Shown here in pieces: positions 37,787 through 38,470 of a stretch of DNA of 49,229 bases (the first letter of the stretch is position 1; each line of letters begins with the position of its first letter). Source of the DNA: Candidatus Woesearchaeota archaeon (GTDB taxonomy: Archaea > Nanobdellota > Nanobdellia > Woesearchaeales > ARS49); assembly GCA_030750765.1 (NCBI GenBank), contig JASMHM010000007.1, forward strand, positions 1 through 49,229, written 5' to 3'. Made by a program: the position numbers and the translations under genes. The notes under the pieces were generated by a model. It saw only the letters and a list, made by a program, of their open reading frames with translations. It ran no database searches and was not told the origin of the DNA.

Positions 37787-37831
37787 CTCGTAAACTTTAA
37801 AAAGGGTCCAGCTTCTTTATTAGTATTCTTT

Positions 37832-37906
37832 GCCCCTGTAGTGTAGTCCGGCCAAGCATGCTGCCCTTTCGAGGCAGCGACTCGGGTTCAAATCCCGGCG
37901 GGGGCA
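37832..37906 (+). tRNA. tRNA-Glu (UUC)
   Basis: 75 bases. The acceptor GCCCCTG pairs with CGGGGGC, plus discriminator A at 37906. Anticodon stem CTGCC/GGCAG holds the loop CTTTCGA with anticodon TTC. The T arm is TCGGG TTCAAAT CCCGG. No intron and no CCA encoded. Its last 20 bases recur, with one mismatch, at 38451-38470. Confidence 0.97.
37887..37906 (+). repeat. Direct repeat copy 1, at the tRNA-Glu 3' end (att-like)
   Basis: TTCAAATCCCGGCGGGG followed by GCA. It is the T-loop and acceptor half of the tRNA. A copy with one mismatch at position 18 lies 564 bp downstream in the same orientation. Direct repeats of a tRNA end are the normal trace of site-specific integration. Confidence 0.75.
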
Positions 37907-37907
37907 T

Positions 37908-38174
37908 CTATTCCTTAAAATCGTAGATGTTGTCGTGATGGTCGTAGTATCGGAAAATTATCTTACTCTCTTCATGCCGGAATAAAAGAACAAAACTAGA
38001 CTTGACATGGACTCTCTTGTAGTGTTGTAATGGTCGTTTAAGATTCTTGTAGTGTGAAGGATCAGATTTGATTACTTCTTCGATTTTTTTCAGCAAGATC
38101 TCAAACTGTTTCGGGTCCTTCTTGGATAATTTAGCTAGCGTCTTATCTAGGTCTGGATGAATCTCGTACTGCAT
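37908..38174 (-). CDS. RelE/YafQ-like toxin
   Basis: 88 residues. The MQYEIHPDLDKTLAKLSKKD start, the basic HYKRVHVKSSFVLLFRHEE strands and the RYYDHHDNIYDF end are those of the RelE/ParE/YafQ superfamily of ribosome-dependent mRNA interferases. The His pair (154-155 of the fold, here near 79-80) and Arg/Lys residues on the last strands are candidate catalytic groups. It ends two bases from the tRNA gene. The stop is adjacent to the antitoxin's end. Confidence 0.85.
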   Translation of the reverse strand: MQYEIHPDLDKTLAKLSKKDPKQFEILLKKIEEVIKSDPSHYKNLKRPLQHYKRVHVKSSFVLLFRHEESKIIFRYYDHHDNIYDFKE

Positions 38175-38408
38175 TCAGGAATGCCTCTTGCGAAGTTCAT
38201 CCACATTCTTGAACTTGATGCCTTTCTTTTTTTCTCCCTTTCTTATTTTTTCTACAAAATCCGGCCTGAGCTCAGGCTCCATATGATCCTTCTCATACGC
38301 CTTCACAACCAAAGAAATTGCTTCTGCTTTGTTTCTTAGATCGTTTTGTATCTTGACTATATGCAACGTCTGGTTCACGTCCTTAGGTATGTCTATCAAA
38401 GCCTTCAT
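38175..38408 (-). CDS. Antitoxin, DUF2683-like
   Basis: 77 residues. The opening MKALIDIPKDVNQTLHIVKI and closing EKKKGIKFKNVDELRK match the DUF2683 family of archaeal antitoxins that pair with RelE-type toxins. It is the upstream gene of the module with no gap to the toxin. Promoter: TATA at 38435-38442 and three GTTAA repeats 10 bp apart. Confidence 0.82.
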   Translation of the reverse strand: MKALIDIPKDVNQTLHIVKIQNDLRNKAEAISLVVKAYEKDHMEPELRPDFVEKIRKGEKKKGIKFKNVDELRKRHS

Positions 38409-38443
38409 GTTAATAGTTGTTAATACTTGTTAACATTTAAAGC
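38409..38443 (-). promoter_or_regulatory. Antitoxin promoter with three 10-bp-spaced repeats
   Basis: GTTAA occurs at 38409-38413, 38419-38423 and 38429-38433, exactly 10 bp apart, so the sites face the same side of the helix. The unit repeats roughly as GTTAATAGTT, GTTAATACTT, GTTAACATTT. The TATA box ATTTAAAG (38435-38442) follows. This is a strong candidate for cooperative autoregulation. Confidence 0.6.
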
Positions 38444-38450
38444 TTTCGTT

Positions 38451-38470
38451 TTCAAATCCCGGCGGGGACA
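38451..38470 (+). repeat. Direct repeat copy 2 (tRNA-end duplicate)
   Basis: TTCAAATCCCGGCGGGG followed by ACA. It matches the last 20 bases of tRNA-Glu with one mismatch (19/20). There is no tRNA here. It marks the far edge of the toxin-antitoxin insert, just upstream of the antitoxin promoter. Confidence 0.75.

Follow-up and report, generated by a model that had tools for sequence, protein, structure and literature searches.

What brought a single toxin-antitoxin pair to the 3′ end of a tRNA-Glu gene, when the pair lies between two copies of that end and no recombinase accompanies it? The locus is in the window, a 49,229-bp stretch of DNA that is the entire contig C14 of its source genome (G000; 1.14 Mb, 16 contigs, 98.7% complete), from a tiny, symbiont-like DPANN archaeon. 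Both this genome and that of a congener (G001), with which it is compared below, are draft assemblies, and contigs C2-C7 of the source genome read as N in the sequence stretches used. An earlier interpretation made from the letters alone (the sequence-only reading) had proposed site-specific integration at tRNA-Glu, either of a minimal satellite using the integrase of another element or of a larger element reduced to its addiction module. The features of the locus are listed in Table 1.

Table 1. Features at the tRNA-Glu locus (positions in the window)
Feature	Position	Strand	Basis
tRNA-Glu(TTC), intact target gene	37832..37906 (ARAGORN: 37831-37908)	+	ARAGORN
tRNA-side copy of att-like core, TTCAAATCCCGGCGGGGGCA	37887..37906	+	repeat search
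Distal core copy (displaced tRNA 3′ end), one mismatch (GGGGACA)	38451..38470	+	repeat search
88-aa ORF, predicted YafQ/RelE-family toxin	37908..38174	-	ORF list, profiles and fold
77-aa ORF, predicted DUF2683 antitoxin	38175..38408	-	PF10884, E=7.5e-8, above cut-off
Three tandem 10-bp repeats, TTAATAGTTG/TTAATACTTG/TTAACATTTA	38410..38439	.	sequence inspection

The two copies of the tRNA-Glu end share an exact block of 17 bp, extending to 20 bp with one mismatch. With up to three mismatches allowed, this 20-mer matched the window twice; no match was expected in 100 shuffles, and the analytic chance expectation for the repeat was about 5e-6. A search of the whole source genome (up to two mismatches) returned only the two window copies and the copy of tRNA-Glu with which contig C1 starts. 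The claimed duplication was therefore confirmed by both searches, and the 20-mer, far from occurring at many unrelated places, is confined to the tRNA-Glu locus and its C1 copy. Chance was ruled out as the origin of the repeat by the shuffles, by the genome-wide search and by the strand- and side-specific placement statistics described below. The tRNA gene is identical to that of the congener at 76 of 77 bases, and to the start of C1 at all 77.

Open reading frames and profiles also bore out the claim that the 564-bp unit between the repeats carries a toxin and an antitoxin gene only, with no recombinase encoded among its ORFs. The antitoxin gene lies directly upstream of the toxin gene in one operon, both genes being antisense to tRNA-Glu, and the toxin stop codon (TAG) begins 2 nt beyond the core. 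The three 10-bp repeats immediately upstream of the antitoxin start are likely to be a promoter/operator, judging by their position. Alignment with the congener resumes at window position 38469, so that the distal repeat adjoins the old chromosomal flank.

The toxin matched the YafQ profile TIGR00053 with E=2.5e-15 and 56.8 bits, below the curated cut-off of 87.25, and a RelE-like PHROG at 1.6e-4. Its AlphaFold (AF2) model had a pLDDT of 89, and the best Foldseek matches of the model were solved YafQ, RelJK and YoeB toxins, which places it in the RelE-like fold at a sequence identity of about 17-18% to the solved E. coli YafQ structures. Fourteen residues were invariant across 18 relatives. 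Profiles and model together identify the pair as a predicted type II toxin-antitoxin operon, consisting of a toxin of the YafQ/RelE superfamily and a DUF2683 antitoxin. It resembles YafQ-DinJ and RelBE in toxin fold, family profile and operon organization, whereas the antitoxin of those systems is DinJ/RelB rather than DUF2683. Homologues of the toxin occur in 174 of the 288 genomes of the order, and none was found in viral_contigs. In the source genome, all three YafQ/DUF2683 pairs are found downstream of a tRNA gene, at a distance of no more than 1.75 kb. A general tie between this toxin family and tRNAs was rejected, as only one of 29 homologue loci in other genomes was near tRNAs, without repeats.

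The sequence-only reading had suggested a search for a recombinase directed at tRNA-Glu, and one was found on contig C1, directly after an identical tRNA-Glu. The identity between this contig (4253 bp) and the window covers just the first 77 bases of the contig (window 37832-37908); about 20 bp after the tRNA, a 444-aa ORF begins. Because the ends of contigs C10 and C13 likewise overlap by exactly 77 bp, 77 is most likely the k-mer length of the assembler, and the beginning of C1 most likely marks a branch point of the assembly graph. The ORF matched a PHROG integrase (4e-6), Pfam Phage_integrase (weakly) and the archaeal XerA model (5e-7; 29.5 bits against a cut-off of 220), and it contains the motif set R213, H317-x-x-R, H344 and Y at about residue 353 (R-HxxR-H-Y), which identifies it as a predicted tyrosine recombinase/integrase. 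An integrase-bearing alternative at tRNA-Glu is thus present in the same assembly. Most simply, an integrase element would take the place of the toxin-antitoxin unit after tRNA-Glu in part of the sampled population; alternatively, C1 could come from a co-occurring relative with the same tRNA 77-mer. Its composition is ordinary, though at the low edge.

A PF00589 search of the source genome yielded only the C1 integrase and a XerA-like gene on C16, with no IntI-type integrase. Among named genomes, relatives of the C1 integrase were found in the congener only. Viral carriers of the unit were rejected: neither the C1 integrase nor the toxin had relatives in viral_contigs, which also contained no match to the tRNA-Gln core described below and whose matches to the tRNA-Glu 20-mer lay in unrelated tRNA-like genes. 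Positions 2890-3260 of C1 (locus L009) contain several perfect palindromes with a GGTCAAATGACC core, compensating changes in their flanks and related GGATGGTCTTCCTAC spacers; their arrangement would be compatible with replication-origin iterons or a hairpin array of the integrase element.

The congener is collinear with the window (about 82% nucleotide identity) up to the end of tRNA-Glu and again from position 38469, with about 11 kb between. This insert begins with a 91.5%-identical copy of the C1 integrase, which is truncated at its 3′ end and lacks the catalytic tyrosine region. It contains three further tRNA-Glu 3′-end copies in the same orientation, together with a ParE/RelE-type toxin gene and a pair with a small wHTH gene. 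The contig may be chimeric, because 4.2 kb of the insert (L026:10126-14291) are 99.93% identical to a distant part of the source genome (C8:175182-179347); this segment, around tRNA-Ala, is either a contig chimera or a very recent transfer between genomes that are otherwise about 82% identical. A tRNA-Glu site without an insert was not found in any of 26 family genomes, and the congener site is occupied within the same outer borders.

In two further genomes, contigs break exactly at the 3′ end of tRNA-Glu (the end of G020:C104 and the start of G017:C7), as expected if several neighbours compete for this position in the sampled populations. At L073:6826 (contig C3 of the congener), where no tRNA is close by, a RadB-like ORF starts at a perfect 15-bp tRNA-Glu core.

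These neighbours of tRNA-Glu raise the possibility that a larger, integrase-bearing element decayed there to its addiction module and outer repeats. Both C1 and the congener have integrase elements that use tRNA-Glu; decay does happen, since the integrase copy of the congener has lost its catalytic-tyrosine part; and the distal core of our unit carries a mutation. The other tRNA genes of the two genomes bear directly on this possibility.

A genome-wide scan of the source genome for tRNA genes with recurring 3′ ends found a second unit at tRNA-Trp on contig C15, where a second copy of the end CAAATCCCTGCGCCCCCATTA, with one mismatch, lies 655 bp further downstream. Between these 21-bp repeats lies a toxin-antitoxin pair different from that at tRNA-Glu, made up of an AbrB/MqsA-like zinc-finger antitoxin and an 80-aa partner with no Pfam match. 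In the congener, tRNA-Trp runs directly into the same downstream gene with a single 21-mer, i.e., a clean empty site. The comparison of empty and occupied sites that the sequence-only reading had called for at tRNA-Glu thus gave an empty site at a sister locus, tRNA-Trp of the same genome. With the 20-mer confined to its locus and the same architecture beside a natural empty site, its claim of site-specific insertion at tRNA-Glu, by a unit without a recombinase of its own, is well supported. A homologue of the Trp pair in G002 is not located at a tRNA, and in G015 a PIN-domain toxin pair abuts tRNA-Trp.

At tRNA-Gln, the source genome carries a tandem array of a cysteine-rich unit, a ParE/RelE-type pair (542 bp) and a HicBA pair (490 bp); a copy of the tRNA-Gln 3′ end closes each of the three. 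The array of the congener has the same first unit, followed by a Doc-type pair, a HAD gene and a RelE/AbrB pair, its units lying between cores with 0-1 mismatches. The two genomes diverge at the core after the first unit, which is 92-97% identical between them (flanks, 75-85%). The cysteine-rich ORF of that unit (C8:240888-242232 in the source genome) has internal repeats.

At tRNA-Arg, a methyltransferase gene and a YafQ/DUF2683 pair are present in the source genome. The congener shares this YafQ pair (80% identical), preceded by a SET-domain gene and followed by a MazF-type pair and then a second YafQ pair; tRNA-Arg 3′-end copies separate the last three units. Of these YafQ, MazF-type and YafQ cassettes, the source genome has the first only, and the borders fall at the cores or within a few bases of them. 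The third YafQ/DUF2683 pair of the source genome, at tRNA-Leu, ends at a core copy in a unit that contains a class II tRNA synthetase-like gene as well. The cassettes of the congener at the same tRNAs thus differ (MazF-type, Doc, RelE, YafQ) and are swapped at the repeats. Units containing only a toxin-antitoxin pair, about 0.49-0.9 kb long, are found repeatedly, at several tRNA genes as well as in tandem. About half of all units carry other genes (methyltransferase, SET, HAD, cysteine-rich), and at some borders (unit 1 at tRNA-Arg of the congener; tRNA-Pro) a second core is not clear.

Copies of the last 16 nt of each tRNA gene (up to two mismatches) were counted downstream on the same strand and in three controls. 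Within 3 kb of 95 tRNA genes there were 24 such copies, against 0, 0 and 0 in the controls. The source genome alone gave 7 within 10 kb (controls 0, 0 and 0), the congener 6 against 1, and further loci from the order 10 against 0; these four sets cannot be summed because they partly overlap, with, for instance, the tRNAs of the source genome and one G004 locus counted twice. The junctions are copies of 15-21 bp of the tRNA 3′ end, with a sequence that differs for each tRNA. In nine of ten cassette genes checked, a stop codon lay inside the core or no more than 3 nt from it, a figure that describes anatomy and is not a blind test, because the ten genes were picked as neighbours of cores.

Read from the two assemblies, the insertion boundaries, the empty and occupied states at tRNA-Trp, the tandem arrays at tRNA-Gln, -Arg and -Leu and the exchange at internal cores between two species are all apparent. 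We conclude that the unit at 37887-38470 is probably an integrase-less cassette, consisting of one toxin-antitoxin operon and one tRNA-Glu 3′-end copy, inserted site-specifically at tRNA-Glu as one of a recurrent tRNA-anchored set in this lineage, with tRNA-specific integrases probably acting in trans. Of the two origins offered by the sequence-only reading, the minimal satellite is the better fit, with the C1 integrase a candidate mover, because units holding only a toxin-antitoxin pair recur at several tRNAs and in tandem. Decay of a larger element now appears unlikely. There are several independent one-pair units whose borders are intact and that keep no trace of an integrase (Glu, Trp, two at Gln and one at Arg in the source genome; three at Arg and two at Gln in the congener), with internal cores between units and genes ending at the core, a regularity that decay would not yield.

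We rate as less probable still a transposon-like insertion with long target-site duplications, by a casposon-like or unknown transposase, in which the repeats would be duplicated target. Duplications of 16-21 bp at the tRNA 3′ end, with single copies at empty sites, would fit this too, but exchange at internal core copies in the arrays is better explained by recombination between cores; the units lack a transposase, and inspection by eye revealed no inverted terminal repeats. Least probable is ordinary homologous recombination, with strains swapping cassettes through flanking sequence and the cores being old scars: the shared first Gln unit and the Arg YafQ unit could have spread or persisted in this way, but the breakpoints coincide with cores, or miss them by a few bases at most, and the clean empty site at tRNA-Trp has one core.

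If the integrase-less cassette reading is correct, a tRNA-specific tyrosine integrase supplied in trans would recombine the short cores, so that cassettes could enter or leave both at the tRNA and at internal cores, and the pairs would persist because their loss is costly to the cell. A single integrase is unlikely to serve all sites, because the att core differs for each tRNA (Glu, Trp, Gln, Leu, Arg). Our integrase search in the family retrieved 16 loci, eight of which hold a tRNA gene, the integrases often lying beside diverse tRNAs; such enzymes would supply several specificities. A limit on supply in trans is that the source genome yields only the Glu-directed C1 integrase and the XerA-like gene.

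The closest known kind is the additive flexible genomic island at tRNA genes. In Alteromonas fGI1 (PMC4119200) and Ca. Methylopumilus fGI-2 (PMC10872708), a conserved tRNA is the target for strain-variable gene cassettes, and in Methylopumilus the last 20 bp of tRNA-Lys recur as repeats in islands of 330 bp to 42 kb (PMC10872708). Similarly, in our genomes cassettes are gained or lost between relatives at tRNA-Arg and tRNA-Gln with recurring tRNA-end repeats, and the Glu site also differs between the congeners. Unlike those islands, the present ones are in a DPANN archaeon, occupy several tRNAs of one genome, are near-minimal, mostly one-pair units, and have stop codons at the core. Islander-type islands (PMC4383910) and archaeal tyrosine recombinases (PMC8371274) also leave a displaced tRNA 3′ end at the far border; C1 looks to be of this type, whereas the window unit has no integrase and spans only about 0.56 kb. 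Tycheposons, as far as they are described in PMC10872708, are tRNA-anchored cargo elements related to tyrosine recombinases; the anchoring is shared, but at 4-200 kb with a recombinase they differ from cassettes that are mostly about 0.5-0.9 kb without one. We found no report of cassettes containing only a toxin-antitoxin pair at tRNA ends in open-licence PMC text. What is new here is how small and pure these units are, that they occur at several tRNAs of a single small archaeal genome, and that stop codons sit at the core.

Integrons are the textbook route for stockpiling single-gene and toxin-antitoxin cassettes. Like integrons, including archaeal ones (PMC9668308), the present arrays are tandem single-gene or toxin-antitoxin cassettes separated by probable recombination sites, and toxin-antitoxin enrichment is known in bacterial integron arrays, these genes making up 12% of those in Alteromonas integrons (PMC4119200). 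The differences are that the junctions here are tRNA-specific 3′-end copies, in the place that attC has in integrons, that intI was not found in the source genome, and that most genes checked are antisense to the tRNA. Nevertheless, this small-genome archaeon appears to stockpile cassettes in an integron-like manner at several tRNAs, using a 15-21 bp tRNA junction and cassettes without an integrase. More tentatively, DPANN archaea may possess a capture system without intI or attC, in which tRNA 3′ ends and their copies would be the universal cassette junctions, toxin-antitoxin pairs the commonest cargo, and visiting tRNA-specific integrases the agents that shuffle them in trans; we regard this broader proposal as possible rather than probable. 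Should the integron-like stockpiling at several tRNAs be real, toxin-antitoxin pairs would count among the smallest site-specifically integrating units known and would help to explain gene gain and exchange in reduced DPANN genomes. The idea is directly testable, since the two congeners offer sites that are naturally empty or occupied.

Two minor observations concern other sequences downstream of tRNAs. At nine loci of the family just downstream of tRNA-Glu, -Trp or -Ser (L033, L036, L040, L041, L042, L045, L067, L196 and L197), non-coding units of about 90-180 bp lie between tRNA 3′-end copies. Rfam returned only tRNAs at the loci searched. Most of these units contain an inverted T-arm (GGGATTTGAAC or close to it) that could pair with the AATCCC of the copy. 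A wHTH gene also recurs in tRNA-downstream arrays (L026:16388-17049, and C16:5362-6010 and C8:41725-42030 of the source genome). At the first two of these positions it has a second small gene beside it, and the two together are a candidate for a new two-gene module.
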